Positions 36,360 through 53,155 of a stretch of DNA of 64,000 nucleotides are shown here, in pieces. The notes under the pieces were generated by a model. It worked only from the letters and a program-made list of their open reading frames with translations, searched no databases and was not told the DNA's origin. Position numbers and translations under genes: made by a program. Numbering within the stretch: position 1 is the stretch's first letter; the number at the start of each line of letters is the position of its first letter. Source of the DNA: Vibrio sp. FE10 (GTDB lineage: Bacteria; Pseudomonadota; Gammaproteobacteria; Enterobacterales; Vibrionaceae); contig NZ_AP028068.1 of the NCBI RefSeq assembly GCF_030297155.1, positions 1,798,001 to 1,862,000 on the forward strand, given 5' to 3'.

Positions 36360-36496
36360 TTATCACTACAGAAAAAACAACCAAGTCTGCATAACCATTC
36401 ACCCTTTACCGCACCTTTAATTCTCGCCTAACCGACTGAAATAACTGAACAATCAGCACTCATTGCCAAAAATTAATCATGAATTTGCTCGTATTA

Positions 36497-36661
36497 CCCT
36501 TTACGGGAGAAACATAAAAAGGAAATGATACCGAGGCTGACAAGCGCATCGCGCTTGGCAGGCGAATATCTTTCTGGAGGGGGCGGCGCGGGACACGCAA
36601 AATTGCGAAGCAATTTTGTGGGTAGCCGTTCCCTCCACCTTTTTTGTTTCCCCGTAAAGGG
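36497..36661. repeat. 165-bp structured element with near-perfect terminal inverted repeats
   Basis: CCCTTTACGGG at the left end matches the reverse complement of CCCGTAAAGGG at the right end, and the match extends through ACATAAAAAGG / CCTTTTTTGT with two one-base gaps. Inside are CAAGCG/CGCTTG, TGGAGGG/CCCTCCA and CAAAATTGC-GAA-GCAATTTTG hairpins. This layout resembles a miniature inverted-repeat element or a highly folded RNA. Confidence 0.6.
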
Positions 36662-36923
36662 CAAAGCGCGTTATTAATTTTTGGTGTTCACCAAACTCAT
36701 AGCACACATCAAGTAACCTAGACACTTGAACCTATGTCCTGTGATCTTGGCTAACCAATACAGGCTAACTGTTCATCTATCCTCGCCCTGCTCGGTCTAC
36801 TCACTATTGCCGAACAATTCACTGGCTCACGCCGAGGATGGTAAAGGAAGAACTAAGCGGGGGCATACGAAAAACAGTTCTTTTTTAAAGCAACACGGAG
36901 CCGAACGCCTCGCATACTTCTCT

Positions 36924-37020
36924 CCCTTATCAGCTTGCTGATTTAGGGAGAGTAAGCGAGGAAAGCATTCGCGTGATTGCGTTACACCTCGTCAGCCCTT
37001 GTCAGCTTGCTGACTTAGGG
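36924..37020 (+). repeat. Two 25-bp near-palindromic direct repeats
   Basis: CCCT-TATCAGCTTGCTGATTT-AGGG at 36924-36948 and CCCT-TGTCAGCTTGCTGACTT-AGGG at 36996-37020, 72 bp apart. Each can fold into a hairpin (CAGC/GCTG with CCCT/AGGG outside). The paired changes A to G and T to C keep the stem, a hint of selection on structure. Confidence 0.65.
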
Positions 37021-37147
37021 ATGCGTGGAAGTAAAGTAATTGCGTGAAGCGTCAGGAGGGCGGAGAGGAAGCGCAGAAAAAAGAAGGGTGTATTTCCGTA
37101 TGACTTTAGCTTCGTTCGTAGATGCCAATCCGTGAGGCATCAAAGAA

Positions 37148-37265
37148 TCCATAATCTTCCCTAGAAGATTATGGAATTAAGAGTGGGAGCGGGAGGCTTG
37201 CCCTCCCCGAGCACTCTTAACCTCTCACAGAGCACACGTCATTCACTGCACTCACAGCGTGTGCT
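37148..37265. repeat. Three consecutive stem-loops
   Basis: TCCATAATCTTC / GAAGATTATGGA (37148-37175, perfect 12 bp, four-base loop), TTAAGAGTG / CACTCTTAA with an inner GGGAGGC / GCCCTCCC stem (37177-37220), and AGCACACG / CGTGTGCT (37231-37265). The last is flanked by direct CCTCTCAC repeats. Confidence 0.6.
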
Positions 37266-37473
37266 CACCTCTCACGTCAGGGCTGCCGCGAACAGACTTC
37301 CCCGCCGATTTACCGTTTGTTAGTTAGACACACCCTAACCGTAGGTCACATACTTATGGTCGGCTCGCGCCGTGGCACGGTGTTGAGGGTTCATACGCTT
37401 TGCCGCATGTTCGGCGTCATTTAAGACTGTGGGTTACTTGGTGAGTGTCGGTGTTTATCCTGCCGACTACAGC

Positions 37474-38181
37474 TTAATGCACTGTAGCGTATAGGCTACT
37501 CGCGTCTGCTTGCAGTGCTACGTACTTGTGCTTCTCGTTTGATGTGCTCAAGCGCCCTTTAGCTCTCATGTCTTGGTAGTTGTGGTATCGACGCCAATCT
37601 GCTGTCGACATCTGTCCTGTACCTAAACATCGAACACATATTGCTTTGGCAACCGTTCCTTTCCACACACCAGAACCTTCGCAAGATGGACAAGCTGAGT
37701 AAGGTTCGATCACCTCACGGGCTTCATAGTTCTTATCCGCTAGTATCTTCGACCACTTAACCATGTCACGGCGTATCTCAGGTGTTGGAGGAACTCGTGT
37801 TAACTCTCTGTATGAGCGGTAACGTTTCTTTGTTCTTGTCGCTTGTTTGACGACATTAGCTCCCAACTCAGGCGTTAAACCTTTGTACTTGCCGCGACGG
37901 TGCTGTTGATAGCGATCCTCGGCTTCGTAATAGGTACTCTGTGCCACTTCCACTTCTTCTGGTGTCATCGGCTCGTCGTAATCTTCTGGCGTTGGGTTAT
38001 CGACCAACTTGTTAAGCATTTGGCGATTGAACTCGCCTGTTTCGGTGTTAACAACTTCGATGTCTCGTAAATCGTTAACGATAGACGAGTACAGCGTTGG
38101 GGCTGTTTTTCTCTTTGTCGGCTTCGTATTAAGCCCCTTGTACGTGAGTTTCGTTGTTAACTCTATGGTTAAGAGTTTCAT
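37474..38181 (-). CDS. Protein with a DnaJ-type CxxCxGxG zinc finger but no J domain, 235 aa
   Basis: A 235-aa soluble protein. Its C-terminal part holds two DnaJ-type zinc-binding motifs, CPSCEGSG (Cys164, Cys167) and CVRCLGTG (Cys182, Cys185), enough for one zinc site. The N-terminal two-thirds are charged and helical (PMTPEEVEVAQSTYYEAEDRYQQHRRG) with no J domain or HPD motif. Single DnaJ-like fingers occur in phage late-transcription antiterminators and in chaperone cofactors, so a role in antitermination or protein folding for the island is possible but unproven. ATG 38181 follows AGGAGGA at a good distance. The downstream region has no gene, so it is the last gene of its unit. Confidence 0.65.
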   Translation of the reverse strand: MKLLTIELTTKLTYKGLNTKPTKRKTAPTLYSSIVNDLRDIEVVNTETGEFNRQMLNKLVDNPTPEDYDEPMTPEEVEVAQSTYYEAEDRYQQHRRGKYKGLTPELGANVVKQATRTKKRYRSYRELTRVPPTPEIRRDMVKWSKILADKNYEAREVIEPYSACPSCEGSGVWKGTVAKAICVRCLGTGQMSTADWRRYHNYQDMRAKGRLSTSNEKHKYVALQADASSLYATVH

Positions 38182-38229
38182 GGTGTCCTCCTGTCGATGG
38201 TTCGTTATTCACTTAATGACAGCTACAAA

Positions 38230-38257
38230 AAAGCCCCGTCATTTCTGGCGAGGCTTT
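38230..38257 (-). terminator. Terminator behind the 65-aa gene
   Basis: AAAGCCCCG at 38230-38238 and CGAGGCTTT at 38249-38257 form a nine-base stem with a G-T pair. On the minus strand it is followed by TTTTTTG. The stem abuts the stop codon of the upstream gene. Confidence 0.75.
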
Positions 38258-38454
38258 CACTGAATTATCCACTGGTTACATATCGTGAGCCCTTTTCGAA
38301 GAACGGTTTTTAAGCCGCTTTTTGACCACGTTTGCACTTCTTTGGCTTTGTAATTAAAGACAACAACTTGGCTTTGGTCTGTATGTCTACGATATAGAAT
38401 ATCCAGTACGGGTTCGCTTGTGATGAGTTGCAGTCTTGGGCTAAATCTCTTCAT
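38257..38454 (-). CDS. Small basic hypothetical protein, 65 aa
   Basis: A 65-aa basic protein starting at ATG 38454, with AGGAG nine bases upstream. The sequence has no signal peptide or membrane helix; it is rich in arginine, lysine and leucine (LQLITSEPVLDILYRRHTD, TWSKSGLKTVLRKG). This could bind nucleic acid, but no family is recognised. It is followed directly by a terminator, and the next gene on this strand has its own ribosome-binding site. Confidence 0.5.
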   Translation of the reverse strand: MKRFSPRLQLITSEPVLDILYRRHTDQSQVVVFNYKAKEVQTWSKSGLKTVLRKGLTICNQWIIQ

Positions 38455-38644
38455 TGTTTTTTACTCCTATGCAGTTAGCTAAGTGTTTCTTCTAGGTTCA
38501 CGGGAGTAGGTTCATCAGATTCAAATCCTAATTACTCACTTCGAAACCAAAAAGAAACAGGCACACGTCTGTCAGAACGACGCATACATAACCTCACAGG
38601 CTCTCTGCCCTCTAATCACTAGAACCACTTCGCTTGCGATTAAC

Positions 38645-38696
38645 GTCCCACAAAAGAAAAAGGGACTTTTCCTGTGGGCTACAGAAAAAGTCCCTT
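38645..38696. promoter_or_regulatory. Alternative hairpins upstream of the nuclease-STAND gene
   Basis: AAGGGACTTTT at 38660-38670 and AAAAGTCCCTT at 38686-38696 form a long stem, extended by CTGT/ACAG. An overlapping alternative pairs CCCACA (38647-38652) with TGTGGG (38674-38679), and GTCCC at 38645 can also compete for GGGAC. The two folds exclude each other. The rest of the 444-bp stretch up to 38898 has no gene. Confidence 0.5.
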
Positions 38697-38898
38697 CAAA
38701 TAAAAAGCAAACAGGCCGGGGGTTGCTTTAAAAGAAAAGTTGCTCAGAAAATTTTTTAAAAAAACCTAGCCCCTCTTATAGTTCAGTGATCAATTTCACA
38801 TAAAACATATGCAGTTCGTATCATCCATGATCTATATCTAGGTATCACCCCATCTCTAACTGTATGATCGGCTGCAAATTTTTCCCCATTGGTTGTGT

Positions 38899-41655
38899 AT
38901 GAAAATAGAAGTTGTATGTAAGAAAGGTGAAGCCCAAAAGGTAAAAGGCGACCTATTCGAGAACTTGGCATCGGATTTACTAAACGCGCAGAACTATGAA
39001 GTTACCGAAGAAGTTCGAGTTACAGGTTCGGAGCTTGATTTACTTTGCAAGCATCGTGTTAGCAACAAAGAAATCTACGTCGAATGTAAAGCGCAGAAAG
39101 ACAAGATTGGCTCACCTATAATCACCAAGTTAATCGGTACGGTTGTCGCACATGATTATCAAGAGGGGTGGTTAGTATCTACAGCGGAGTTTGGCAAAGA
39201 TGCACTCGGACTTGCAGACAAAATAAAGAGCAAGCCAATCGCTGAATCATCTAAGTACAGCTTCTATACTCCAGATAGAGTCGTAGACTCTCTGATCTCT
39301 GCCGGAGTTATTGTTAGGTTCCCGACAGAAAAAGCGGAAGCATTCGCAGGGGTTGATAACCTAGGTAGTACAACTCTACTAATCTCGGAACTTGGTCGCT
39401 TTTGGTGCGTTTACACTTTGAAAGGAGGCTCTCCAAGCGGTGTTTTAGTATATAGCGCAAAAACGGGATTACACATCACGGACACAGATACACTAACAAA
39501 TATTTCGAAGTTAGATTCTACACTAGCAAAGTATGACCTATTCGTAGGCGAGGTTAAGGCTCTAAATAAAATAAGCTTAACTAAACCACAGAAATTACCG
39601 TCAGTCGTAGAAGTTCAGATTGGTGACTCATGGGATGACTATCGCCCTGCTCGTCCTAAAGACTTCGTAGGTCGCGATGAACTCCAAAAGAACATTCTTT
39701 CATTTCTTGGTTCGATAAGAGATAAGGAGTCGTCGACTCGAATATTTGCGATAACAGGTAACTCGGGACTCGGTAAAAGTTCATTGATTGCGAAATTACG
39801 AGATCGCGCAAAGAATAAACACTACAAGAACAAATACTATGTGTTCGCCGTAGATATTCGTGGCGCAAAATCTCCGAACTACATCAACGCTGCCCTACTT
39901 AAAGCTCTAAAAGAAGCACAGAACTTTGGTGTGGGTGACAAAATAGAATTAAAACTGAGTGACCCAGACGCACCGCTCTCATCAGATAGCATCCAAACTT
40001 ATTTGGAGTCAGTCGAGAAGCAAGACAAAGTGATTTGTTTGGTGTTTGATCAGTTCGAAGAACTCTATTCAAAACCAGAATTATTTAGTGTGTTTGAATC
40101 AGCGAAAAGCTTAATGCTTGAGGTAGCAGCACTGAAAGGTAACCTAGCTCTGGGTTTTGCATGGAAAACCGATAGTACGACTCAGCAAGACCACCCGGCA
40201 TACCATATGTGGCATGAGTTGAAAGACTTGCGCCGTGAATATAGGTTAGAGATCTTCGATAGTGGTGAGGTGTCTAAATCTATCACTACATTCGAAAAAG
40301 AGTTCGACCAAAAAATCACACCAGATATTCGACACCAGATCACTTATGCATGTCAGGGTTTCCCTTGGTTGCTTAAAAAGCTATGCATTAACTTACGAGA
40401 AAGCTACAAGCGCGGTTCTAGTGCTGACGTATCTTTAGCTGACTTAGATGTTGCTAGATTGTTCGCTAATGACTTAGAACAATTGTCTCAATCAGAACGC
40501 ACTTGTTTGGATATTATTGCTGACAGAGCACCTGCGGATTGGAGTGAGATCATTGAGCTGTCTAGTGTCGCCGATGTAAATCAACTCGTTCACAAAAGAA
40601 TGATTATTCGAAGCGGCGACCGTCTAAACATCTACTGGGATATTTTTAAAGATTACCTAATTACAGGTAAAGTACCATTTATCCCTTACAACTATACTCC
40701 TACCTCAGATTTTTTCGCGCTAATGAGTCTTGCGCGCGAGCTAAAGTTTGATTGCTTCACTAGTTCAAACGATCTGGTTGAGAAGTTACAAAAAACTGAG
40801 AAGACAATACTAAACGTCGGCTCTGACTTGGTTATGTTCGGTATTGCAGAAAGAAATGGTTCTAATTTCAAGTTACACTCTCAAGTTACAGAGCTTACTG
40901 ACTTTAACTGTTTAACTATCATCCGACGTAAACTTGCACGTCATAGTTTTAAACTATCTCTATACAAGCAGTTTGCGGGTCAGGTGGTTAATCACAAGCA
41001 ACTGCTTGACACCTTTAAAGCCTCAATGCCGAAAACAGGTCATAGTGACAATACATGGTCTGTATATAGTCGTAGGCTAACCAAATATCTCCAGTTAACA
41101 GGTTTCTTAGTTCAAACTGGACAAGACTACACCATTCAAGATTCCGCTGTCGCAGCTGTTTCTACCGAACAATTCAAAGTTAGGCACAAAGGCAAACAAC
41201 GAAGCAAAGTGTTTTCTTCTACAGTATCCCCGCATAGAGCGATGCAAACATTTAAAGCTTTCCAAGCCAGCGGCAACTTCATAGAGCTAGAAAACCAAGG
41301 TCACCGAAATCAGTTGTCAGTTCTCAAACGATTCGAGTTAATTGTGCTCAATGACGCAGGTTCTTATGCCATCAACCATGCTCTTATTGATAAGCATGGC
41401 GGTGATGTGGAGGCACTTTGGATCGCAGCTAAAAATGAACCTGCTGTCCAGAAGTGTATTGAATACTTGTCTAACGACCTCTCTCTAAATGGCGCTAAAG
41501 TTGGTGAATTGATTGCAAACGATTTTGGGCTTACTTGGAAAGAAGGAAGTAGGAAGCGCGGCGGTAACAGTATTCGTCAATGGTCTCTGTGGGTAAAACA
41601 AGGTATTGAAGACAGTAGTATCCCGTCACTACCCGGCAGAAACAGCAAATCTTAG
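38899..41655 (+). CDS. Restriction-type nuclease fused to a STAND-like NTPase
   Basis: A 918-aa protein, probably an antiphage defence gene. The first ~90 residues look like a PD-(D/E)xK nuclease of the Mrr type: Glu21 in GDLFENLASDLL, Asp47 in GSELDLLC and Glu62-x-Lys64 in IYVECKAQ. A linker of unknown type follows (about 100-260). A NTPase begins at FVGRDELQ, with Walker A GNSGLGKSS (Gly287-Lys293-Ser294) and Walker B LVFDQFEELYS (Asp384). DQFEEL is a hallmark of nSTAND-type NTPases. The remaining ~500 residues are helical with winged-helix-like segments and may form the sensor. By analogy with STAND defence proteins, ligand binding would oligomerise the NTPase and switch on the nuclease. 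ATG 38899 lacks a clear ribosome-binding site. Confidence 0.75.
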   Translation: MKIEVVCKKGEAQKVKGDLFENLASDLLNAQNYEVTEEVRVTGSELDLLCKHRVSNKEIYVECKAQKDKIGSPIITKLIGTVVAHDYQEGWLVSTAEFGKDALGLADKIKSKPIAESSKYSFYTPDRVVDSLISAGVIVRFPTEKAEAFAGVDNLGSTTLLISELGRFWCVYTLKGGSPSGVLVYSAKTGLHITDTDTLTNISKLDSTLAKYDLFVGEVKALNKISLTKPQKLPSVVEVQIGDSWDDYRPARPKDFVGRDELQKNILSFLGSIRDKESSTRIFAITGNSGLGKSSLIAKLRDRAKNKHYKNKYYVFAVDIRGAKSPNYINAALLKALKEAQNFGVGDKIELKLSDPDAPLSSDSIQTYLESVEKQDKVICLVFDQFEELYSKPELFSVFESAKSLMLEVAALKGNLALGFAWKTDSTTQQDHPAYHMWHELKDLRREYRLEIFDSGEVSKSITTFEKEFDQKITPDIRHQITYACQGFPWLLKKLCINLRESYKRGSSADVSLADLDVARLFANDLEQLSQSERTCLDIIADRAPADWSEIIELSSVADVNQLVHKRMIIRSGDRLNIYWDIFKDYLITGKVPFIPYNYTPTSDFFALMSLARELKFDCFTSSNDLVEKLQKTEKTILNVGSDLVMFGIAERNGSNFKLHSQVTELTDFNCLTIIRRKLARHSFKLSLYKQFAGQVVNHKQLLDTFKASMPKTGHSDNTWSVYSRRLTKYLQLTGFLVQTGQDYTIQDSAVAAVSTEQFKVRHKGKQRSKVFSSTVSPHRAMQTFKAFQASGNFIELENQGHRNQLSVLKRFELIVLNDAGSYAINHALIDKHGGDVEALWIAAKNEPAVQKCIEYLSNDLSLNGAKVGELIANDFGLTWKEGSRKRGGNSIRQWSLWVKQGIEDSSIPSLPGRNSKS

Positions 41656-41726
41656 CATTTTAAGTGACAGCGTTATAATCTACCGCATGAACTACGGTGT
41701 CGTTTCGATGATAACGTGGTTGTAGA

Positions 41727-41765
41727 AAAGCCTCGGCAACAGATTTGGTGCCGAGGCTTTTTGTT
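41727..41765. terminator. Bidirectional terminator between nuclease-STAND and the terminase-like operon
   Basis: AAAAGCCTCGGCA and TGCCGAGGCTTTTT form a perfect 12-bp stem around a ten-base loop. It is flanked by A-rich and T-rich tracts, so it works for both convergent units. Confidence 0.9.
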
Positions 41766-41798
41766 TATGTGACCTATAGCACTAAGCATAAAATCCAT

Positions 41799-42299
41799 TT
41801 AACTTGTTCGTTTGTAATCTTCGGGGTTCAGGATAATCTCGCGACCACCGATTGAGTTTCCGAGTGCTGCCAGTAATTCTTCTTCGGTTTGAGCGAGTAC
41901 ATCCCGTTTAGATGTGATAGTAACCTCTTGTTTCTCAGGTGCAGCTAAACCGTGTAACTTAACCATACTATCCACCGCTTTGATCATCTCGGTAGCATTC
42001 ACAGCCATAGCATACGCGTTGTTATAGAGTGCTTGGGCGTCACCTCTAGTGAATTTATCCGGTTTAGCCTGAACTATCGCGGTGTTTGCGGTTTTTGCTT
42101 CTGCTACGGAGTCGAGCATAGCCACTATATCCGGTCTGCGTTCTAGCAGTAAGACGGCAGACTCAGACTCAACCCCTGCTGCATCCCCTGCCTGCCGTGG
42201 CGACTGACCTGCCGAACGCTGCACCACGTACATAAGTTCTTGTTGGGACATCGTAGGATTAATGCCACTACTCATCGCTTTGATTTGTTCGTAGTTCAT
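41799..42299 (-). CDS. Terminase-small-subunit-like protein (second copy), 166 aa
   Basis: A 166-aa soluble protein that resembles phage small terminase subunits in general design. The N-terminal part has a helix-turn-helix-like stretch (ELMYVVQRSAGQSPRQAGDAAGVESESAVLLLERRPDI in outline). A helical middle follows, then a C-terminal segment typical of small terminases, MVKLHGLAAPEKQEVTI. Small terminases recognise the packaging site and hand DNA to the large subunit; satellites use their own version to redirect a helper phage's packaging. The family call is by eye. The start overlaps the stop of the 62-aa gene (TAATG), so translation is coupled. Confidence 0.5.
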   Translation of the reverse strand: MNYEQIKAMSSGINPTMSQQELMYVVQRSAGQSPRQAGDAAGVESESAVLLLERRPDIVAMLDSVAEAKTANTAIVQAKPDKFTRGDAQALYNNAYAMAVNATEMIKAVDSMVKLHGLAAPEKQEVTITSKRDVLAQTEEELLAALGNSIGGREIILNPEDYKRTS

Positions 42300-42487
42300 T
42301 AGTGAGTTCCTCGTTTGAATAGCTCGTATGCTCTGGCGTCTAACGCATTGGCTAATGGTTCAGCATCGGGTAGTGTCGTCAGCCCTAGCACTATTGCGCG
42401 GAATGTTTCGTTGTCCCACACACAGTCGCCGTGTTCGGCAACTAAATCGTTTAACGCCCTACCAATGGACTCGTAGAAATCAGTCAT
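42299..42487 (-). CDS. Small acidic hypothetical protein, 62 aa
   Basis: The open frame reaches 42583, but ATG 42487 is chosen because AAGGTGG lies six bases upstream and the gene then starts just 18 bases after its neighbour. The product is acidic and helical (ESIGRALNDLVAEHGD, LPDAEPLANALDARAYELF). It is the third gene of a four-gene minus-strand operon with two terminase-small-subunit-like proteins. No family is recognised. Confidence 0.55.
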   Translation of the reverse strand: MTDFYESIGRALNDLVAEHGDCVWDNETFRAIVLGLTTLPDAEPLANALDARAYELFKRGTH

Positions 42488-42504
42488 TAGTTGCCACCTT
42501 ATGG

Positions 42505-43281
42505 TTACTGGTTTATCCATGCTTCCACTAGAGCTTCGGGTAATAGTGCTAGGGTTTGCTCGGCACACCCGCGAGTCATCCACTCATCGTATGTTGGACG
42601 GTACAAACCTTTAACGTTGAAACCAACCGAATTAGACACACTTCCTGCGTTACCGAATCCGTCAGGGTTAGCCGTTCGCTCTGCGCGTGCGGTGTACTCC
42701 AATTCGCGGGTAGCTTTACGTACTGCATCGACAATTCGTTCGGTTCGGTCGTGTTCACTGGTAGCTTTACCACCCATCAACCACGCCAGTTCGATAAGTG
42801 ACACTAACTCAGGGTTAGTTAGTGCATCTGTTGCTGTCTGTACGTTACGTTCGTGCAGGGCTGCTGCTTGTTGTCGTTGCTGTTTTTCGGCTTCTGCTGC
42901 TCGCTCGGCTTCACGTTCACGTACTTGTTGCTGCTCGGCTAACCACTCAGCTTCGATGTGTTCGAATAACGCTTTACCTGCTGTAGTCATAACTGGCGAG
43001 AATGTCGCTGCAAGCAGTGTGTCGCTAATGGACTTAGCCACTGTGACTTCGTTACCTAGCTCGTTTAGCAGTGACTCGGCGTTTACTTGTCCGAGAACAA
43101 ACGAACCAAGGGTCGTTAGTTCGAAACCATCTGCGCCCTGTCGTGCGCTGATTGGTAGCAAGGTGTCCAACAGTACAGACGGTGCTACGGTTAAACCCAT
43201 CTGTAACGTTAGGTCATAGGCTGTAGCTAGTGATTTAGAGCCACCGTTGAATAGCTTCGGTAATAATTTATTTACTGTCAT
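42505..43281 (-). CDS. Coiled-coil hypothetical protein, 258 aa
   Basis: A 258-aa soluble protein with three parts. An N-terminal helical domain (about 1-110) comes first, then a long charged coiled coil (about 110-145: EWLAEQQQVREREAERAAE, then KQQRQQAAALHERN), then a C-terminal domain ending LALLPEALVEAWINQ. It lies between two terminase-small-subunit-like genes and its start overlaps the upstream stop by 14 bases. Coiled coils of this type occur in phage morphogenesis proteins, but I cannot name the family. The 242-aa plus-strand frame covering the same DNA is low-complexity and is a shadow. Confidence 0.6.
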   Translation of the reverse strand: MTVNKLLPKLFNGGSKSLATAYDLTLQMGLTVAPSVLLDTLLPISARQGADGFELTTLGSFVLGQVNAESLLNELGNEVTVAKSISDTLLAATFSPVMTTAGKALFEHIEAEWLAEQQQVREREAERAAEAEKQQRQQAAALHERNVQTATDALTNPELVSLIELAWLMGGKATSEHDRTERIVDAVRKATRELEYTARAERTANPDGFGNAGSVSNSVGFNVKGLYRPTYDEWMTRGCAEQTLALLPEALVEAWINQ

Positions 43282-43795
43282 CGCTTAGTGCCTCTGCGTT
43301 TTTGATGAGTTTGTTTAGTTGTCGTTCGCTTAACTTTTTTACGTCTTGAGGTGCTTCTACTTCTGGCAGAATTGCGACTTTTTGGAATTGCAGACCAAGT
43401 AGCCTAACTATCCCCTCTGTCGCTTTGATCATCACCCCTGACTTACCATCTAGCAGTGCAAGTCGGTAACACTCTTGGTAATACTCGAAGGCTGCACGTT
43501 CATCGAAACTCAGCTCTCTTCGTAACTTGCCTTGAAGGTCTTCTTTTAGCTTTTTGTATAGTTCTGTTCCGCGCGCTCTAGATGCTGCGGATTCTGCATT
43601 ACGTATCCCGTTAGGGGCAGTTGTTGAGTAACCTGCGCCGATGGCGTTGTCACGTAATGAGACGTCCCCTTGTAAGGTGTCCAGTATTACAAGTCTTGCA
43701 ACACGCCCGCGTCTACTTGGTGCTTCGGGTAGTTCTGGAATCATTTCTTCTGTACCGTCTGCGTAGACGATTTTTGTTGCTGCGTTTACCGTCAT
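43268..43795 (-). CDS. Terminase-small-subunit-like protein (first copy), 175 aa
   Basis: A 175-aa soluble protein that heads the four-gene operon. After an acidic N-terminus comes RRGRVARLVILDTLQGD, then SLRDNAIGAGYSTTAPNGIRNAES, a helix-turn-helix-like stretch with the AGYS motif often seen in small terminase subunits. A helical oligomerisation-like region (YYQECYRLALLDGKSG) and a GIVRLLGLQF segment complete it. The likely role is recognition of the island's own DNA for packaging into phage heads. GAGGG lies five bases before ATG 43795. Assignment is from motif style, not a search. Confidence 0.5.
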   Translation of the reverse strand: MTVNAATKIVYADGTEEMIPELPEAPSRRGRVARLVILDTLQGDVSLRDNAIGAGYSTTAPNGIRNAESAASRARGTELYKKLKEDLQGKLRRELSFDERAAFEYYQECYRLALLDGKSGVMIKATEGIVRLLGLQFQKVAILPEVEAPQDVKKLSERQLNKLIKNAEALSDDSK

Positions 43796-43820
43796 ATCGC
43801 CCTCTAGCGCTTTGCTTTTA

Positions 43821-43912
43821 TCGTGTCATTTTGACTCATTTTACACCTAAAAAGAGCGTCAACAAAGTGTCAACGAGCTCTATCTCTTATATAATGAGTC
43901 ATAATGACACGA
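43821..43912. promoter_or_regulatory. Divergent promoter with two copies of a 20-bp operator-like element
   Basis: AATGAGTCATAATGACACGA at 43893-43912 recurs as its reverse complement at 43821-43840 with one mismatch. Relative to each gene the element has the same orientation, overlapping a -10 (TATAAT for the plus unit, TAAAAT for the minus unit). Each copy holds a GTCA-TGAC dyad. This is what a shared repressor site would look like. Two GTCAAC direct repeats lie between. Confidence 0.6.
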
Positions 43913-43931
43913 CGAAAGAGTGGATGGATTT

Positions 43932-45077: not shown

Positions 45078-45091
45078 CTGATATCATCGAG

Positions 45092-45470: not shown

Positions 45471-45656
45471 CTAATTCGCTCTGAGAATAGCTGATTCAAT
45501 ACCATCTAACTTTCCACTAAGAATGTCGACGATAGTTTCACTCGATAGGTCATTGCCTATATAGGCGTGAATATCACTAATTAAGACAGTTCCATAGATC
45601 ATAGTTGCAGCAATAATCGCGAGCAACATCACTTTGATGAGTTCTAAATATTTCAT
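45471..45656 (-). CDS. Small single-pass membrane protein, 61 aa
   Basis: A 61-aa protein with one TM helix near the N-terminus (VMLLAIIAATMIYGTVLIS) followed by an acidic periplasmic or cytoplasmic tail. It has no own ribosome-binding site, but its ATG lies two bases behind the stop codon of the upstream exported protein, so translation is probably coupled. The pair may act together at the envelope. Function unknown. Confidence 0.5.
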   Translation of the reverse strand: MKYLELIKVMLLAIIAATMIYGTVLISDIHAYIGNDLSSETIVDILSGKLDGIESAILRAN

Positions 45657-45658
45657 GG

Positions 45659-45961
45659 TTATCGGCACTGCTTATTATAAAGAAACTGTGCTGCCTCCTC
45701 TGGAGTCGATTTGGTTGCGATTGACATCGCTTTCGAATAACCCTCTGCAAATCCAAGGTTGTATGTAAATCTTTCTATTTGTGCGTCTTCAGGCGGAGCA
45801 ATGCGTAACTCATGCTCAGGAAGTCCAGCTTGTTTAGCGAAAGTCATACAGTGGGTTTCGCTTACCCAGTCTGGTGCTTGTCCTGTTGTAAGCGCGGTTT
45901 CTGCGAAAGCTGAGATACTAAAAAGAGCACTCGTTGCAATTAATACATTAAGTTTGTTCAC
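45659..45961 (-). CDS. Small exported protein, 100 aa
   Basis: The frame extends to TTG 46009, but GTG 45961 gives a clean signal peptide (VNKLNVLIATSALFSISAFA before ETALT) and is preferred. The mature part of about 80 residues is acidic with two cysteines (THCMTFA and NKQCR), probably a disulphide. FTYNLGFAEGYSKAMS and TPEEAAQFLYN resemble small periplasmic proteins of phage and island origin. It lies at the end of the primase-helicase side of the island and is coupled to the small membrane-protein gene. Confidence 0.55.
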   Translation of the reverse strand: MNKLNVLIATSALFSISAFAETALTTGQAPDWVSETHCMTFAKQAGLPEHELRIAPPEDAQIERFTYNLGFAEGYSKAMSIATKSTPEEAAQFLYNKQCR

Positions 45962-46031
45962 GTTATTATCAAAAGTATGGGAAGTCAGGCTCTTATTGTC
46001 TCCCACCAAACTCTAAAAATCGCTAAAACAA

Positions 46032-46074
46032 CCTCAATGATGCGTCATATTAATCATTCGTTACATCATTGAGG
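46032..46074. repeat. 11-bp perfect inverted repeat downstream of the primase-helicase gene
   Basis: CCTCAATGATG at 46032-46042 and CATCATTGAGG at 46064-46074 flank a 21-base AT-rich loop. No T-run follows, so it looks more like an operator or replication site than a simple terminator. Confidence 0.6.
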
Positions 46075-46104
46075 TAAAGAGCTTTATTGAACTCCCTTGT
46101 CTGT

Positions 46105-49100
46105 TCAGACAGATAAAAGCATGTTTGGTGTCACCTTGTGCGCTTCGATGTCGGTGTAGGCTACGTTCTCTGAGCCTTTATCTACGTCCCCTGCTCGCTT
46201 GCTCAGGTCAACGTCAGCAGGTTTAACTAGGGTCGGTAGTAGGTAGACTACTGGCTGCCCTAGTGCTTCACGATTGGCGCGTTGTGCTTCGTGCTCCGCC
46301 TGTTCCGCTTGGATAGCTTTAAGTTCGTCTAGTGTGCTGTACTCTCTCAACTGCACATCGGTGATTGCCAGATTCAGACCATCATAATCTCGGTTATCTT
46401 TGATACGCGCGCGCTGTCTAGCGGTCGCTACAGTCATAAGTTGGCGTTGGTTGTTCATGGTTTTGATGCGGTTCACCATCACACGCTCGGCTTCCGGCGG
46501 TAAGTTAGGCTTAGAAATAATGCACTTTCTGTTAAATTTACTAATAATATTCGCAGAAAGTGCATTATTTGGGCGGTCGATTTCGCCCGAATTGTCCGAG
46601 TACGCCTCATCCAACCAAGCATTGAACTCGTCTGCGTCCATATTGCCACGGCTCATTACGTGACCGATGGACTTCATAACGTCTGCAACTACTCGCGTCA
46701 CGCCCTCATCAGACGGTTTAGGCGTGCTTGGGCGAATCCAACTAGCAGGTGCAATACCAAGTGTTACAAGTTGCAGGCGGCTATCCCACATGAAAGCCAC
46801 CAGCTCTTGAACCCAAGGTTGTGCGTGGTGCAGGAAGTAGCGGTCTTTCTTCTTAGTAGCCTTAGACACTTTTTTAAGGCGTTTGGCTTCCGTTTCTAGT
46901 CCGGTGTTCACCATAGTGTCTAGCTGCCTTAGCATAAGCCCACGCTCTAGCTCATAGCGTTTCATTTCTGGTGCTCGAACATCGTCAGCCGTAGGTAGTT
47001 CTACCTTACGTGTCCCGCTTAGAAGCTCTACGTTGTAGAGTGCTTTTCGGTACTTAGGGTTGAAGAAGTTCAGCACATGTTCTGTTTGTACTTCGTCTTC
47101 GATTGTCATGCCGTTGTAGTCACGGACAAACGCTTTACGGGCGGCCAGAACGTCCTCATACGAACAGTCGTCAGTGTTTACGTACTGGCGCGCTGTTATG
47201 TATTCAATGTCTTCTGCTTGGCAGATAGCGTTCACTAGAGCGTCAGTGATTTGTTTCGGGTCAGCTAGTACCAATTGCACATCTGAGTCTTCGCCGTGTT
47301 GCTTGTCTGTTGAAATCATCTGAGTAAGAACCTCTGTCGGTTGTTGTACTGCTTCTAGAGTGAAGCCCATCGTTTCTGCCACCGTACAAATGGACGATGC
47401 CTGTAGTGCTGTTAATCGGTTCAGACGGTCGATGCGGTCTGAGATAATTGCGCGGAATACTGGACTGCTATCGCGTGTTAGTTGTTGGTCGACATCTAGT
47501 GGTTTAGCTTCTGCACCTGCCGTGATGTACACCAAAATCTCATCTACGGTGCGAAGTCGTCTCATCATTTGTAAGGTACTAGGTGCAGGGATAACACCCG
47601 TAAACCATCCGTACATCGCTTTGAAGTGACCTCCGACTAGTGAGATTCCGCTATCAATCGCAGGTGAATATATAATGATGTCGTACAACTCAGCGTATTT
47701 ATCCGGTTGCGCTGTGAAGTTTTTCATGTCAGTTTCCCACTGTTTAACTGACATACCGCACAGCTCAGTAGCAACGTCTACCTTTTCAGGCTTAGGACTC
47801 GTAATACACAACACACGCTCCGCAGGCACACCCATCTCGATAAACGAGCGTCTGAGATTCCAAACATGACTAACGCTGTCACAGGCAAGCATGAAGCGTC
47901 CATCCGCCTCACCGTCGACTACCATTTGCACTTGGGTATCGAGCATTTGGATCATCTTTGAGTCAGTACCGATAACACGCATCTTAGGTGGACTAAAGCG
48001 CACAGCTTCGTTAGGCATTTCGTACACTGAAACCGTTTCTTTCGGGATTATGGCTAGAGACTCAGCACTGCTGCTATGTAGGTTAACCAGTTGTCGCACA
48101 TCCCTTTCACATAAACCTGCGTCCAGTAGTACGACTTTAGGAGCGCGAGTAAGCACCGCCAGTAGGTTGTTCATAATGGCTCTAGATTGGTTGCCCATTG
48201 TTTTGCGGTTGGTAAACGAGTCTAGTACCTGCGATGCTTCGTCGATGATTATCACATCCGCACCCATTACAAACTCATTGAACATGTTGTTGAATGCTGA
48301 GTTAATGCATACAGCTAGTCCTTTGAACATGTGGTGTGTATCGCTCTCTTGGATTGCTTGTCGCACCCACTTATCTTTATAGGACACAACAATGTTTGCC
48401 GACTCATCAACGGTGTTGTGGCTGCGCCAGTCGTCCATCGCCTCGTAATCAGCATCACTAATCTCAACACCCATTGAATCCGCGTGGTGTAGGTTACGCA
48501 TCATCATGTCGGTTAGGTCGGTTGCTTCCTGTCCTTTAGAGAAACTCAGCGCGTTGTTGCGTGATAGTCGTTCACGATGCGTGATGATGACCACTCGTAG
48601 CCCTGCATCCATAAGTTCCTGCGCATGGGTCACCATTGCCTGTGTTTTACCTGATGCCATAGGTGCTTTAACAAACGTTACCTCGTTCTGCCCTAGGTCT
48701 TCTAGGTTGAACAATACCGGGTAGAAGCCCAAAATCCCCGTCACTGACCAGTCGTTATTGATAGGCGCGAGGTTAACCAACGAATGCACAGATTGCGCTT
48801 GCTGCTTAACAAAGTGTCTTAGTGTGGCGACTAGAAACGCTCGGTCTACTTGAGGCAGTTGTAGAGATAGGTGCAGTGCTAAGGTTTCGATACTTAGACC
48901 ACCAGTGAACACGGTTTTACGTAGCGCATGACACACAGCATTCGCCACCGCATACGCTGCGTCTTCTTCCACTAGGACACCTTTGCGTGAGAGCTTGTTT
49001 AACTCGTTAGTCGCATCCGCCACATTTCGAGGCATCTTAGCTAGTTTAAAGTCAGCGTATCGTTCTGTATCCAACGCTAGTTTGTGCGTACCTGTAGGGA

Positions 49101-50724
49101 TGTCTAGGTTGTCAGTGAAGTCTAACGCTACGTTCTTTAGTGTTGTGTACCCGTTCGACTTGTCTACCAAGGGGTATGCGGCATACTCATCCTTGTTACA
49201 ACCGTGTAGCCATGCGTGCATGACAACGTGCGCTTGTTCCGGCTCTAGTAGGTTATAAATAGCAGACTGTATAGAACCGAGTACCGCGTCAGTTACCATA
49301 GCGGGGATAATATGGAATAGAGCGTTGAACACCTGTGGCTTGTTGAGCGCGACAAAGCGGATCGTAGCTTCTTCGGCTATTGCTGCTGACTCTATGTTAC
49401 TCGCATCCTTAATCGCTGTGTCTTGCTTGGTATGTGTCTGACTGCGAGAAGTCACTGAACCTGATAGCTTGTTCTTTAGGGACTCTCGCATGGCATGACG
49501 TTCTTGGCTAAGGATATTCCAACTCTTACCACCAGAATACTTATACGTGCGTAAGGTCTTTGTTCTCGGATGTATTTCTAGGTTATCCGACACTTCATGA
49601 ATAGAGTCGTAACACACAATCTTACCGTGGTAGTCACCGACCAAATCCAGCAAGTCACCTAGGCGAAACGTTGCGTCACGCTTGATACCTTTACGTTGTA
49701 GAGCTGCGTCTGACATAGTTTTAATTGTCACCAACAGGTCTTCCGTGACGACACCGTTCTCTAGGTTATTCATAAGCTTGTTAACGGTTGCCGTAGCTTG
49801 CTCTATTGTCATACCACTTGCGACATACTTAGATACTTTGTTCTCCATGTACGTAGCTCTCACCGCTGTTGCCGTCTCCGATAGTGCATCTTTAGCCTCA
49901 CCAACCAACGCCATGTATTCTTCGTGTCTTACATCAGATTCAAATGCTACAGGTAGGACAACGCCGTCCCGAACATAACTCTGTGGAGCGTTTCGGGTGA
50001 TACCGTCATACAACTTAGGGACAGCTTCAAAGGAGAAGCGCGAACAGTCACAAGCACTAGCATCGAACACCTGATTACGCTCAAGACGAGAACCGATAGA
50101 TGACACCTTAATCTCACCGTAACCATGCCCCCACGCCGCGCGCTTTAGGTTCGTAACAAGGTCGGGGATACCTGCCAGTGAGTCGACAACATAGTATAAG
50201 TGCCAACCGTCAGCTTTGTGTTTCTCGCCCGTTGGGTAATAGATACCTGCCGATGAGGATGGTTTAGCTACGTAACCTGCACCGATGAAGTTAGGGCAGA
50301 TGCCGCATAGCAACGCATGAATCTCATCGGCATTTAACGGTGTGTCGCCGTCATAGTCGACAAGTAGGAAGCCTTGTACATCAGGATACCCGATTAAACC
50401 CTCGCGCTTGGTACGTGCCAATTGGTTGCGTTTCAGGTTAGAATCACCTGTACGTATTTGCATTGGCTTGTTGTCATCCCACACAGAAACGACATCCGCA
50501 GAAAGTACACCGGAACATAACGTGTTGTTCTCTACTACAGCACGCAGTTCCTCCCACGATTTCACAGGGTTACGCTGCCACACACCGTTATTCACCGTAA
50601 CTTTAGCAGTTGATTCGATACGACCATCCACCAAACGAAACTCTTTAGAGGCTGTCTGACGCGCCGCAGGGTTAATCGTTAGAACTTCGAAATTCAAAAC
50701 GTTTTGGTTATTTAGCACTGGCAT
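46105..50724 (-). CDS. Primase-helicase replication protein, 1539 aa
   Basis: A very large replication protein. The N-terminal ~240 residues look like an archaeo-eukaryotic-type primase: DYD at 123-125, the PSSSAG loop near 155-160, GWH at 173-175 and VFDAS with Asp221. A long linker follows. The helicase has Walker A APMASGKT (about residue 685-692) and Walker B VIIIDEAS (about 823-830). The later motifs YSPAIDSGISL and TLQMMRRLRT match origin-binding, superfamily-2-like replication helicases, similar in style to CyRepA1 plasmid replication proteins. It should recognise and unwind the island's origin and prime replication. A 17-bp inverted repeat lies inside its 3' region. Its start overlaps the stop of the small upstream gene. 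Confidence 0.75.
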   Translation of the reverse strand: MPVLNNQNVLNFEVLTINPAARQTASKEFRLVDGRIESTAKVTVNNGVWQRNPVKSWEELRAVVENNTLCSGVLSADVVSVWDDNKPMQIRTGDSNLKRNQLARTKREGLIGYPDVQGFLLVDYDGDTPLNADEIHALLCGICPNFIGAGYVAKPSSSAGIYYPTGEKHKADGWHLYYVVDSLAGIPDLVTNLKRAAWGHGYGEIKVSSIGSRLERNQVFDASACDCSRFSFEAVPKLYDGITRNAPQSYVRDGVVLPVAFESDVRHEEYMALVGEAKDALSETATAVRATYMENKVSKYVASGMTIEQATATVNKLMNNLENGVVTEDLLVTIKTMSDAALQRKGIKRDATFRLGDLLDLVGDYHGKIVCYDSIHEVSDNLEIHPRTKTLRTYKYSGGKSWNILSQERHAMRESLKNKLSGSVTSRSQTHTKQDTAIKDASNIESAAIAEEATIRFVALNKPQVFNALFHIIPAMVTDAVLGSIQSAIYNLLEPEQAHVVMHAWLHGCNKDEYAAYPLVDKSNGYTTLKNVALDFTDNLDIPTGTHKLALDTERYADFKLAKMPRNVADATNELNKLSRKGVLVEEDAAYAVANAVCHALRKTVFTGGLSIETLALHLSLQLPQVDRAFLVATLRHFVKQQAQSVHSLVNLAPINNDWSVTGILGFYPVLFNLEDLGQNEVTFVKAPMASGKTQAMVTHAQELMDAGLRVVIITHRERLSRNNALSFSKGQEATDLTDMMMRNLHHADSMGVEISDADYEAMDDWRSHNTVDESANIVVSYKDKWVRQAIQESDTHHMFKGLAVCINSAFNNMFNEFVMGADVIIIDEASQVLDSFTNRKTMGNQSRAIMNNLLAVLTRAPKVVLLDAGLCERDVRQLVNLHSSSAESLAIIPKETVSVYEMPNEAVRFSPPKMRVIGTDSKMIQMLDTQVQMVVDGEADGRFMLACDSVSHVWNLRRSFIEMGVPAERVLCITSPKPEKVDVATELCGMSVKQWETDMKNFTAQPDKYAELYDIIIYSPAIDSGISLVGGHFKAMYGWFTGVIPAPSTLQMMRRLRTVDEILVYITAGAEAKPLDVDQQLTRDSSPVFRAIISDRIDRLNRLTALQASSICTVAETMGFTLEAVQQPTEVLTQMISTDKQHGEDSDVQLVLADPKQITDALVNAICQAEDIEYITARQYVNTDDCSYEDVLAARKAFVRDYNGMTIEDEVQTEHVLNFFNPKYRKALYNVELLSGTRKVELPTADDVRAPEMKRYELERGLMLRQLDTMVNTGLETEAKRLKKVSKATKKKDRYFLHHAQPWVQELVAFMWDSRLQLVTLGIAPASWIRPSTPKPSDEGVTRVVADVMKSIGHVMSRGNMDADEFNAWLDEAYSDNSGEIDRPNNALSANIISKFNRKCIISKPNLPPEAERVMVNRIKTMNNQRQLMTVATARQRARIKDNRDYDGLNLAITDVQLREYSTLDELKAIQAEQAEHEAQRANREALGQPVVYLLPTLVKPADVDLSKRAGDVDKGSENVAYTDIEAHKVTPNMLLSV
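46515..46570. repeat. 17-bp perfect inverted repeat within the primase-helicase gene
   Basis: AAATAATGCACTTTCTG at 46515-46531 and CAGAAAGTGCATTATTT at 46554-46570 are exact reverse complements around a 22-base AT-rich spacer. It lies in the 3' part of an open coding frame, where such symmetry is not expected from codon use alone. Confidence 0.8.
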
Positions 50725-50954
50725 TACTTCACCTCTTGCACAGGCATAAACGCCAAGCGACCTTTGCCTAAGACGCGCGTTATGAAGTGAGTGTTGCGGC
50801 GGTTTTTGTTCATTGAGTACACACGTTTGCGTACGGTTGCAATATCGTGGTCTGTTGCAAGGTTTTCTAGAACCACGGCTTCACCTTGGGCTACACGCCA
50901 GATGATACCTGCAATTTCTAGTGTGTCGATGTCACGCGCTGTAATGAGTTTCAT
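50724..50954 (-). CDS. Small DNA-binding-like protein coupled to the replication gene, 76 aa
   Basis: ATG 50954 is chosen because AAGGAAG lies five bases upstream; the open frame extends to 50990. The 76-aa basic protein starts MKLITARDIDTLEIAGIIW and has a helix-turn-helix-like LATDHDIATVRKRVYSMNKN followed by a basic strand region. Its stop overlaps the start of the 1539-aa gene by one base. Small DNA-binding proteins in this position often regulate replication or excision in satellites and plasmids, as AlpA-like proteins do. The family is not recognised. Confidence 0.55.
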   Translation of the reverse strand: MKLITARDIDTLEIAGIIWRVAQGEAVVLENLATDHDIATVRKRVYSMNKNRRNTHFITRVLGKGRLAFMPVQEVK

Positions 50955-51285
50955 AGAGACTTCCTTTAAGATTGAGCACAGATACAACATGTATCTGTGT
51001 AATCTCCAACCAAGTCTCTATGTTGGCTTTTGGGGAACAGGAACGCGTGAATGACGGCTAATATCCTTCCCTTGGGAGAATTGTATTATACCTTTTTACG
51101 GTGGGTTTTCCCGTAGTTAAGGTTTAAATGGATCTGGGGAAAAGACCAATATCACATAGATTAAATCGATCAACAGCCCGATATCGATCGATTTTATCTA
51201 TCGAGAACAATGTTCCATGCTTGGTACAGCAAGGTTACACCGTAACGTCAGCCATAAACAAGGTTAGTACAGCCATGACTTAACC
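50955..51285. other. Non-coding stretch with inverted and direct repeats, 331 bp
   Basis: No gene. It holds AGATTAAATCGATC / GATCGATTTTATCT (51158-51171 and 51186-51199, 13 of 14 matching) and overlapping GATCG motifs. AAGGTTA copies lie near 51229 and 51258, with TAACCTT near 51281. It is the upstream region of the replication operon and so the likely place of its promoter and control sites. Confidence 0.5.
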
Positions 51286-52863
51286 TTACGCTTTATCGAG
51301 TGTTATCAGTCCTTGTTTGCCGCCAATCTCAAACGGGATAGCCTTAAATCGAGATACTATCCCTTCGAATGCAGCACTTTGCGCCCTTATTTCTAGGCTA
51401 CGACCTGCTCCGTCTAGGTAAATCACACCGTGACGCTTGGTAAGTAACTCACTACTCCCATCTGCGTTGAATACCCATGACTCAAAACTGTTGCGGAATA
51501 TCTGCGCCGCTTCACGCCTACTCGTCTCATCGGACAAATGTAGTTTGCGAACAGCACTCAACTGAATCAATGGTGCGGCTTGTACACCCTTAGCACTTGC
51601 TAGAGCTATCTCAGCCTGTTCTAAGTGTTGCGTGTTCTCTGTGACCTCTAACTCAAGTCGACTTAGTGCAGAAAATGCGGCTTCGGATGGGAACTTTACA
51701 GCCATATCGGATGCGGTAGCTAAACGCCCTCTAACATCTTTTAGACTTAATGCGGCATCTTGTACTGCTGCGGTTAACCGTTGCGTCTCGTCTTGTTCTA
51801 CAGGTAGGTCACACAACACAGCGGCTAGGCTTTTAGCTACTGCGAACAAGTGACTTAGTTTGAACATCACATTCCCGCATTTATGCAAACGGCGATGTGA
51901 AGCACATTGCAAGTATTCGTAACGAACTCCCGCAGAACTCCGTGATGACGCATAGTGCATCGTCTCCGAACACTCGCCGCAGTGACAAAACCCTGTAAGT
52001 GGATTCGCAACCTTACCTACAGTTATTGATGCGCCTAGACTCTTAGATGACAATTGGTTTTTTGCCTTTAACCAATCCTCTCTAGTAACCACTACCGGGT
52101 AAACCTCGACCGCGTTCCCGTCGATGGTTTTGATACCTGTTACATTCTCATTTAATAGAACCTTGCGTACGGATGCGGATGACCACTTAGGAGAGCGACC
52201 GCTAAGTGTTGTTATCCCTTCATCGTTTAACTGCTTCGCTGTACTAGCCTGACCTAGACCGGAGAGATAAAGTTCGAATAGACGACGAACAGCATCGGCT
52301 TTATGGTTCAACTCGTAACCGCTAGGTGTAAAAGTAACCCATGATGCAGGGCGCGTAACTCTCGCGACTTCTCCATTCAGTAACCGGGTGTTCGCTGCTT
52401 TGATCGCATTTGTAGTTCGAACCGATTTAGCGTGACTCTCGCTCCATGCCCTTTCCTGCGTGACAAGGTAAGTAAGCATCGAGCCTAGGTCATTACGAGA
52501 CTCTTTAGTGAAGACCTTACCGTCCATCAGCGTGACGATATTAATATCAGCACCTAGAATATTCATCCAAGTAGTTAGTGCGTCACCAATCGCCTGTCGG
52601 CTTAAACGGTCGATGTTCTCTACTAACAAGTAACTACCTGCGGGTATTACACCGGAACTAATAGCAGACAGCACTCCGGCGAATGCACCCTGTGATATGT
52701 GATCGCCTTTAAAAGCTGAATAGCCCTCATCGGTTATGACATCTAGCAATCGCCCGTCATTGGCAGCACACCACCTGTCAGCTAATAACTGCTGCCTCTC
52801 AAGGGATGAACCTTTGGATTGCTTTGATGTGGAGTACCTTCGGTATAGGTAGCAGTTTTTCAT
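51286..52863 (-). CDS. Large serine recombinase (integrase)
   Basis: A 525-aa site-specific recombinase. The N-terminal resolvase domain starts YRRYSTSKQSKGSS, with the catalytic serine in R-x-S-T-S (around residue 11), and continues with LLVENIDRLSR and the GSMLTYLVTQERAWSE helix. The recombinase domain follows (about 180-280), then a zinc ribbon (FCHCGECSETM and LHKCGN) and a long coiled coil (about 355-420). The gene lies at the right end of the island and reads inwards, as usual for integrases of this type, so the attachment site should be just beyond its start. It should integrate and, with a helper factor, excise the island. Confidence 0.88.
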   Translation of the reverse strand: MKNCYLYRRYSTSKQSKGSSLERQQLLADRWCAANDGRLLDVITDEGYSAFKGDHISQGAFAGVLSAISSGVIPAGSYLLVENIDRLSRQAIGDALTTWMNILGADINIVTLMDGKVFTKESRNDLGSMLTYLVTQERAWSESHAKSVRTTNAIKAANTRLLNGEVARVTRPASWVTFTPSGYELNHKADAVRRLFELYLSGLGQASTAKQLNDEGITTLSGRSPKWSSASVRKVLLNENVTGIKTIDGNAVEVYPVVVTREDWLKAKNQLSSKSLGASITVGKVANPLTGFCHCGECSETMHYASSRSSAGVRYEYLQCASHRRLHKCGNVMFKLSHLFAVAKSLAAVLCDLPVEQDETQRLTAAVQDAALSLKDVRGRLATASDMAVKFPSEAAFSALSRLELEVTENTQHLEQAEIALASAKGVQAAPLIQLSAVRKLHLSDETSRREAAQIFRNSFESWVFNADGSSELLTKRHGVIYLDGAGRSLEIRAQSAAFEGIVSRFKAIPFEIGGKQGLITLDKA

Positions 52864-53065
52864 TATTTGTTCCTGTAAATTGGGGAGATGATTACGCCCT
52901 ACATTTTACATCACATGATAATTAATGCGATATTTGGGACGCGCAGAAAGACATGCTTTGCGATACAACTGGAGCGATAGTCTCGCTATTACTTCTCAAG
53001 CTTCAAGGGCGAGTCAGAGTTCATTGATACTAGCCTTTTATTCAGAACTTCAATACCAGATCTGA

Positions 53066-53104: not shown

Positions 53105-53155
53105 TTTTATCGTGCGCTTTCATTTTATGGCTATCGTTTATTTCATAGCTATCGT

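Follow-up and report, generated by a model that had tools for sequence, protein, structure and literature searches.

Of the satellites known in Vibrio, PLE of V. cholerae integrates by means of a large serine recombinase (LSR), which is turned by the phage protein PexA (PMC6002521). The most abundant PLE transcript is reported to be noncoding, and ICP1, the helper phage of PLE, to make a noncoding transcript of approximately 800 nt, which was compared with GOLLD and ROOL (PMC7567579). We analyzed an island in the genome of Vibrio sp. FE10 (6.0 Mb, three contigs), which lies within a stretch of 64,000 nucleotides (contig NZ_AP028068.1, positions 1,798,001 to 1,862,000), hereafter called the window, whose numbering is used for all coordinates. 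This island is probably an integrative phage satellite that is new in its combination of features. Integration by an LSR is not itself new among Vibrio satellites, since PLE uses one too.

The likeness to PLE is one of class, with no PLE sequence compared. PLE resembles the island in its LSR integrase, a replication initiator of its own, the lack of any portal seen and a similar size, 18 to 19 kb; it also has a noncoding region of approximately 3 kb and makes an abundant noncoding transcript, for which the structured left end of the island would be a candidate counterpart (PMC6002521, PMC7567579, PMC7145576, PMC10945586, PMC6092414). The two differ in replication: the RepA of PLE is described as a RepA_N protein without a predicted primase or helicase, whereas the island encodes a 1539-aa primase-helicase of the N15 type. 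From 80 open reading frames (ORFs) of at least 50 aa in the region 33000-57000, 15 within the island were taken as predicted genes; all 15 were compared with PHROGs and 14 of them, all except the 65-aa ORF at 38257-38454, with Pfam. None of those 14 genes gave a RepA_N row in Pfam, and by this test, on the strength of family matches, the island is not a PLE. A TcaP-like protein was not recognised in the island either.

The ends of the island were determined by comparison with an empty site, locus L027 (G186:C46), in G186, a genome labelled as the same species. Window positions 34801-36352 align with bases 1-1552 of L027 at 96.8%, and positions 52929-57915 align with bases 1551-6500 at 94.5%. 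The dinucleotide GA at L027 bases 1551-1552 is common to both junction alignments, and the island, 16,578 bp long, is therefore placed at 36353-52930 (equivalently 36351-52928). Its junctions overlap by 2 bp, the left GA copy (attL) lying at 36351-36352 and the right copy (attR) at 52929-52930. A 2-bp overlap is what is expected for an LSR. The initial annotation, which had proposed an island at 36400-53060, was thus right about the island but not about its ends, and the comparison that it had recommended with a related Vibrio genome lacking the island was the one that gave ends exact to the base. It did not report that the island interrupts a conserved gene. The 5' part of this gene (35817-36352, plus strand) encodes an inner-membrane protein, presumably YjdF/DUF2238, and its frame stops just inside the island; the 3' remainder, up to the stop codon, is found at 52931-53027 on the same strand, and the junction splits codon 179. 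In G186 the gene is uninterrupted and encodes a 210-aa protein. The host gene was matched in 164 of 226 genus genomes; among the matches listed, only that of the FE10 genome itself ended at residue 179, those in G059 and G227 ended at residue 190, and no second island was seen at this site.

The LSR gene (51286-52863, minus strand, 525 aa) matched both PF07508 (Recombinase, E 1.5e-14) and PF00239 (Resolvase, E 1.2e-13) over their cutoffs and the PHROGs integrase family phrog_95 (E 9.3e-55), which bears out the recombinase named in the initial annotation. The recombinase lies beside the attachment site and the junctions carry the 2-bp overlap, and by these features the island is an LSR integrative element. 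A search for relatives of the recombinase gave 20 matches, spread over 12 genomes of the 61 covered (its own among them), and none except itself exceeded 39% identity; no other island protein was found near these relatives at E <= 0.01, either in four longer stretches (L032-L035) or in 19 short loci (L004-L022). A search of viral contigs with the LSR gave a single partial match at 24%. The FE10 genome also carries a second large serine recombinase gene (G000:C1:1515595-1516362, locus L032), whose neighbours, with names assigned by eye, include a small resolvase and a protein of TIR/SEFIR-like kind, and this locus is another possible mobile element.

The primase-helicase predicted by the initial annotation, a replication protein of 1539 aa (Rep; 46105-50724, minus strand), was confirmed by family matches in both of its parts. 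Its primase-like N part matched phrog_16593 (E 2.2e-21), and its helicase is of the kind found in the RepA proteins of phage-plasmids (phrog_4913, E 1.3e-40). Against the CyRepA1 family NF042913 the protein scored 132.9 bits (E 1.7e-38), below the cutoff of 200; by the rule of that family its sequence is that of a distant CyRepA1 relative and not of a member. In translated searches, the RepA proteins of N15, PY54, VP882, and phiHAP-1 matched the helicase part at 26.8 to 28.2% identity over 17 to 25% of the protein, and the primases of Bcep43 and Xanthomonas phages matched the N part; in total 44 phage records were matched, none of them spanning 80% of the protein. The sequences VDYDGD, APMASGKT, IIIDEAS, and QMMRRLR were located in the replicase and can be read as a DxD motif, Walker A, Walker B, and an arginine-rich motif VI; DYD, GKT, DE, and RRLR were invariant in three Vibrio homologues, with core residues conserved in those of V. 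cyclitrophicus and V. lentus. An 88-aa ORF (50724-50990, minus strand) lies directly before rep and overlaps it by one base, which confirms the coupled small gene of the initial annotation. No convincing family was obtained for it in Pfam, PHROGs, NCBI family or PADLOC scans, and our guess is that it could be a regulator or an excision factor. The replicase coding sequence contains an inverted repeat at 46515-46570, with arms of 26 nt that are 85% complementary and enclose a loop of 4 nt. The origin of N15 lies within repA, and by analogy this repeat may be part of an origin.

Neither PHROGs, for all 15 genes, nor Pfam, for 14, gave a capsid, portal, large terminase or tail family at E <= 0.001, in agreement with the absence of such genes noted initially; the weaker rows of the head or packaging kind were phrog_11494, a terminase small subunit (TerS) (E 0.0054, 41799-42299), and phrog_3112, a virion structural protein (E 0.72, 42505-43281). 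The initial annotation had named two findings as contrary to a satellite, namely capsid, portal or large terminase genes in the island and non-phage families among the packaging-like genes; no family of the former kind was found, and no non-phage family was matched above cutoff. Its two TerS-like proteins were upheld only in part, by rows that all fell below threshold. The first (166 aa, 41799-42299, minus strand) is the one that gave the phrog_11494 row, and TerS names appeared in 3 rows among its best 50 Foldseek matches, at a best E of 1.1. For the second (175 aa, 43268-43795, minus strand), the top three of 284 Foldseek matches were terminase small subunits (E 0.044-0.065), as were 11 of the best 50, although none of these matches reached significance. 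Pfam gave no TerS row for either protein, and on these sequence and model comparisons we regard both as weakly TerS-like. The scaffold-like protein of the initial annotation, a charged protein of 225 aa (43920-44597, plus strand), keeps that name here purely as a label, with no function assigned, and no family, structure or phage match supported it: nothing useful was obtained by family scans, by a translated phage search or by comparing its profile with solved structures. The PDB sequences matched by the profile included no scaffold, in a search that did not set the protein directly against TcaP.

A further feature, absent from the initial annotation, is a noncoding, highly structured segment at the left end (36480-37450), which is a candidate giant structured RNA; the plus strand has the lower energy, and both strands score. 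The first gene begins at 37474, and the 1.1 kb that separates it from the left junction holds no credible gene but only short ORFs, three of which matched nothing in PHROGs better than E 0.17. The minimum free energy of the segment was -382.7 kcal/mol on the plus strand versus -299.5 +/- 8.0 for shuffled sequences (z -10.4, 0 of 20 shuffles) and -357.2 kcal/mol on the minus strand (z -6.6). Per nucleotide, the segment reached -0.394 kcal/nt versus a mean of -0.267 (sd 0.023, lowest -0.318) for 63 other plus-strand windows of 971 nt; its G+C content of 50% accounts for part of this low value, and the shuffles allow for G+C. On the plus strand the predicted fold has a 5' domain (36497-36661), a long hairpin closed by a perfect 11-bp helix with a pair probability of 1.0, followed by a main domain (36707-37443), whose ends are joined across 737 nt by a helix of 14 bp with a pair probability of 0.99. 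Folded separately, positions 36480-36700 gave z values of -7.3 (plus) and -7.7 (minus), with 0 of 200 shuffles each, and positions 36700-37450 gave -6.9 (plus) and -6.6 (minus), with 0 of 20 each; 310 of the 322 pairs of the segment were kept in a larger context. The main domain includes two tandem hairpins, CCCTT(A/G)TCAG-CTTG-CTGA(T/C)TTAGGGA (36924-37021, at 36924-36949 and 36996-37021, plus strand), which form a repeat family and are both predicted to be paired; these CUUG-loop hairpins differ by one compensatory change, A-U to G-C, between repeats of the same element. There was no credible Rfam match for the segment at E up to 1 or up to 10, with GOLLD and ROOL both absent, no exact match to the tandem-hairpin pattern in viral contigs, and no antisense pairing with the rest of the island beyond 12-nt matches at E 0.84. 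As z values from 8 shuffles were noisy, we relied on energies and on runs of 20 or 200 shuffles; positions 50493-51463, which had seemed to be a stronger fold at z -12.8 with 8 shuffles, fell to -3.5 with 20 and were rejected. When 200-nt windows of 35001-54000 were compared, pieces of the segment did not lead, with a best value of -3.3 versus -6.5 elsewhere in the island.

Relatives of the island proteins were sought in a database of approximately 5.8 billion proteins, where matches require shared 5-residue words and a similar length and where the Rep search covered the best 7993 candidates. At E <= 0.001 there were two relatives of Rep, two of the scaffold-like protein and one of a TerS-like protein. 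Those of Rep were found in V. cyclitrophicus (96%) and V. lentus (51-53%), that of the 175-aa TerS-like protein in V. lentus (95%), and one of the scaffold-like protein in V. crassostreae (94%); the V. lentus TerS-like and Rep relatives are probably on the same contig, since the longest contigs recorded for the two are equally long. The V. cyclitrophicus Rep differs unevenly from that of the island, being 89-90% identical in residues 121-470 versus 96-99% elsewhere, a pattern that suggests recombination. By these protein matches, genes of the island occur in several Vibrio species with differing divergence. Viral contigs yielded no relative, whether the query was Rep or its profile, the profile of the scaffold-like protein, or either TerS-like protein (175 and 166 aa), and genome contigs yielded none for Rep and its profile. 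Among genus genomes, Rep was present in 2 of 196 (its own and G032), the scaffold-like protein in 1 of 227 and the 175-aa protein in 1 of 226 (in both cases its own), and the 166-aa protein in 2 of 226, its own and G149, which has a partial copy at 41% with a stop. The match in G032 is on an 8.2-kb contig (locus L031, G032:C111) with a protelomerase-like gene, as judged by eye, and a RepA-like gene, apparently a linear phage-plasmid of another genus genome. In G149 (locus L036, G149:C45, 620-841 and 984-2081), the relative with the stop is found beside an IS110-like transposase, named by eye. No prior description of an element of this kind was found in searches of one open-access library, preprints not being covered.

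Taken together, these results describe a discrete, mobile, probably replication-competent element without a recognised structural gene, and to this extent they favor the satellite proposed initially; the weak TerS evidence and the unsupported scaffold do not. Several further observations weigh against it. The TerS support is below threshold and was obtained with models of mean pLDDT 57 (175-aa protein) and 51, and no TerS was present among the best 50 PDB Foldseek matches of the 175-aa protein. A search of 50,697 phage records at E <= 1 gave no homologue of the scaffold-like protein or of either TerS-like protein, the one exception being a partial row for the 166-aa protein (E 0.1), and megablast of the island DNA matched neither phage nor plasmid records. 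A satellite master regulator (AlpA, Stl) was not recognised in family scans of the island proteins, which gave no repressor family and left several small genes unassigned, nor is a helper, a circular form or a particle on record for the island. Three points about the structured segment weigh against an RNA: no sigma-70-like promoter precedes it, the two strands score alike when taken by domain, so that either strand is possible, and the segment occurs in 1 of 226 genus genomes, its own, so that it has no relative for a comparison of paired positions.

The same observations can be read in other ways. An integrative plasmid-like or mobilizable element that is not borne by phages, in which an LSR, an N15-type plasmid replicase and a defence gene would spread through natural transformation or with the help of another, conjugating element, would be in keeping with the weak packaging genes and with the name of the nearest NCBI replicase family ("plasmid replication protein, CyRepA1 family"). 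Distant relatives of the replicase also occur on 254 plasmid records, of which 231 are typed as non-mobilizable. We nevertheless consider this rather unlikely, as no relaxase family appeared in the Pfam and NCBI family rows of the proteins scanned and the two TerS-like proteins would be left without an explanation. In addition, the plasmid record L023 is a phage-plasmid with a protelomerase and tail genes, and the phages N15, PY54, and VP882 together with L023 mean that a replicase of this type is no sign of a plain plasmid. The phage relatives of the replicase and the LSR would also suit the remains of a prophage or phage-plasmid whose structural genes are gone, an explanation that we find improbable given exact ends, large genes that are open with their motifs present, and single-gene homologues at 94-96% in other species; moreover, no phage-gene fragments were recognised among the listed ORFs, in which no systematic pseudogene search was made. 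Lower still do we rate a defence island that relies on its LSR to move and has no transfer route of its own, whose left end would be a replication origin, a transfer origin or a cluster of DNA hairpins rather than an RNA. The scores on both strands, which inverted repeats in DNA would also produce, and the lack of a sigma-70-like promoter favor this reading. Against it, the whole plus strand folds 25 kcal/mol better than the minus strand, the 14-bp helix extends over 737 nt, and nearly all predicted pairs are retained in the larger context.

If the island is a satellite, it would depend on a helper phage, and PLE would provide a model, by analogy, for how it works. The LSR would have joined attP to the site in the conserved membrane-protein gene at GA, giving the observed insertion and overlap. 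On phage infection, a small protein, encoded either by the phage or by the element itself, could turn the LSR to excision, as the biology of LSRs suggests, and the resulting circle would be copied by the 1539-aa protein, whose families and motifs are those of a primase-helicase. The TerS-like pair may, tentatively, steer the large terminase of the helper to the element DNA, and the island, in which neither head nor tail genes were recognised, would then travel in a helper particle. The left end, with its predicted fold, could be transcribed as a giant RNA in the phage phase, from whichever strand and in whatever role, and the Mrr-nSTAND gene described below might protect the host against competing phages.

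This last gene (38893-41655, plus strand, 920 aa) encodes an Mrr-type nuclease joined to an nSTAND1 NTPase, with matches to PF04471 (Mrr_cat, E 1.4e-14) and PF20703 (E 2.7e-9) over their cutoffs, as the nuclease-STAND gene of the initial annotation had implied. Its PADLOC rows were weak and partial only (best E 3.1e-6), and by its domains it would be defence-like cargo. The first gene of the island (37474-38181, minus strand) encodes a zinc-finger protein of 235 aa (CxxCxGxG) that matched PF00684 below cutoff and phrog_4046, of unknown function (E 4.1e-6); it weakly resembles the phage antiterminator Q (phrog_127, E 0.037) and is a possible regulator. The remaining minus-strand genes are the 65-aa ORF at 38257-38454, without a PHROG match; a small ORF at 42299-42583, a 258-aa protein at 42505-43281 and a 67-aa ORF at 45135-45338, all three without an assigned function; a 65-aa ORF at 45471-45668, with one likely membrane helix by eye and a row to phrog_1953, of unknown function (E 0.0079); and a signal-peptide-like protein, judged by eye, at 45659-46009, with a likely start at the GTG at 45961. 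On the plus strand, a lipoprotein-like protein of 124 aa with a VLSGC lipobox (by eye) is encoded at 44703-45077. The small exported proteins listed initially do look exported, as judged by eye.

Two repeated motifs associated with these genes are further signs of a regulated element. The divergent intergenic region between the TerS-like and scaffold-like genes (43815-43918) contains two inverted copies of GTGTCATNNTGACTCATTNTA, on inverted arms of 29 nt (43815-43843 and 43890-43918). This motif occurs twice in the window versus 0.05 times expected, and the only 2 matches in the genome at <=2 mismatches are those in this region, while a reversed-pattern control gave 0; the pair is a candidate operator or packaging site (pac/cos). 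Its two exact matches in viral contigs fall inside ORFs that by eye are large-terminase-like and were taken as chance. The second motif, TTGAGSTTGTTTTAGCGNTTTTTAG, is found at 44629-44653 (plus strand), 49 nt before the lipoprotein-like gene, and again at 46013-46037 (minus strand), 51 nt before the GTG at 45961. In the form TTGTTTTAGCG, defined from the island's own repeat, it occurs twice in the window versus 0.16 times expected. With <=2 mismatches allowed, the genome as a whole has 2 matches to this form, as to TTGTTTTAGCGNTTTTTAG, each of them exact and within the island. A backwards-pattern control also gave 2 genome matches, and the argument therefore rests on exact identity and placement, not on rarity. 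Standing before two exported-looking genes, the motif is possibly a shared promoter or operator of the element.

The island was also compared with other known systems. Satellite P4 carries alpha, sid, psu, and other genes; none of these turned up in the general family scans, no dedicated P4 search having been made. Gram-negative PICIs resemble the island in being integrated, with a replication module, no structural genes and sometimes terS (PMC6092414); the island differs in having no recognised AlpA/Stl pair, in its gene order (by eye) and in its size of 16.6 kb versus typically 12 to 15 kb. PICMI of the Vibrionaceae, as described in PMC10803314, likewise has a Vibrio host, and its model accepts PF00239 and PF07508, both of which are present in the island LSR; it lies beside fis, however, and needs AlpA and a DUF3987/DUF5906 primase, whereas the island has none of the three, as judged by its Pfam rows and its different site. 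The cf-PISP and PISP satellites of V. crassostreae share with the island a related Vibrio host, a size of 11 to 16 kb and repA, but they are episomal, with capsid proteins and parA and no integrase detected (PMC13230959), whereas the island is without a capsid family. By these sequence features the island is not PICMI, not cf-PICI and not PISP. Satellite finders rely on gene sets already known; in this island, family scans recognised none of the hallmarks of PICI, PICMI or cf-PICI.

The structured segment resembles GOLLD and ROOL in size class, many GOLLD RNAs exceeding 800 nt, in an elaborate fold and in an association with phages and prophages; GOLLD and ROOL are often near tRNAs (PMC12286853), whereas the window has none and the segment has no Rfam match to either. 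The segment offers a specific candidate for a giant RNA that would be new and would belong to a subviral element. With some hesitation, and as a possibility that we would hold to be doubtful at present, we suggest that coastal vibrios harbor a new family of satellites of which the island is the first member seen, one that combines LSR integration and an N15-type primase-helicase with its own giant RNA. This RNA, of approximately 970 nt and without relationship to GOLLD or ROOL, would be produced while the phage is active and would serve hijacking, perhaps in packaging or by forming an RNA assembly. The exact ends of the island simplify tests of excision, transfer, and RNA. The RepA proteins of N15, PY54, VP882, and phiHAP-1 share with the island the helicase part of its replicase; these are whole phages, and two Vibrio carriers of such replicases have a protelomerase (annotated in L023, by eye in L031), whereas the island has none recognised and carries an LSR instead. 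If the island is indeed a satellite, LSR-based satellites of Vibrio are not limited to PLE, and a replicase of the phage-plasmid type can drive one.

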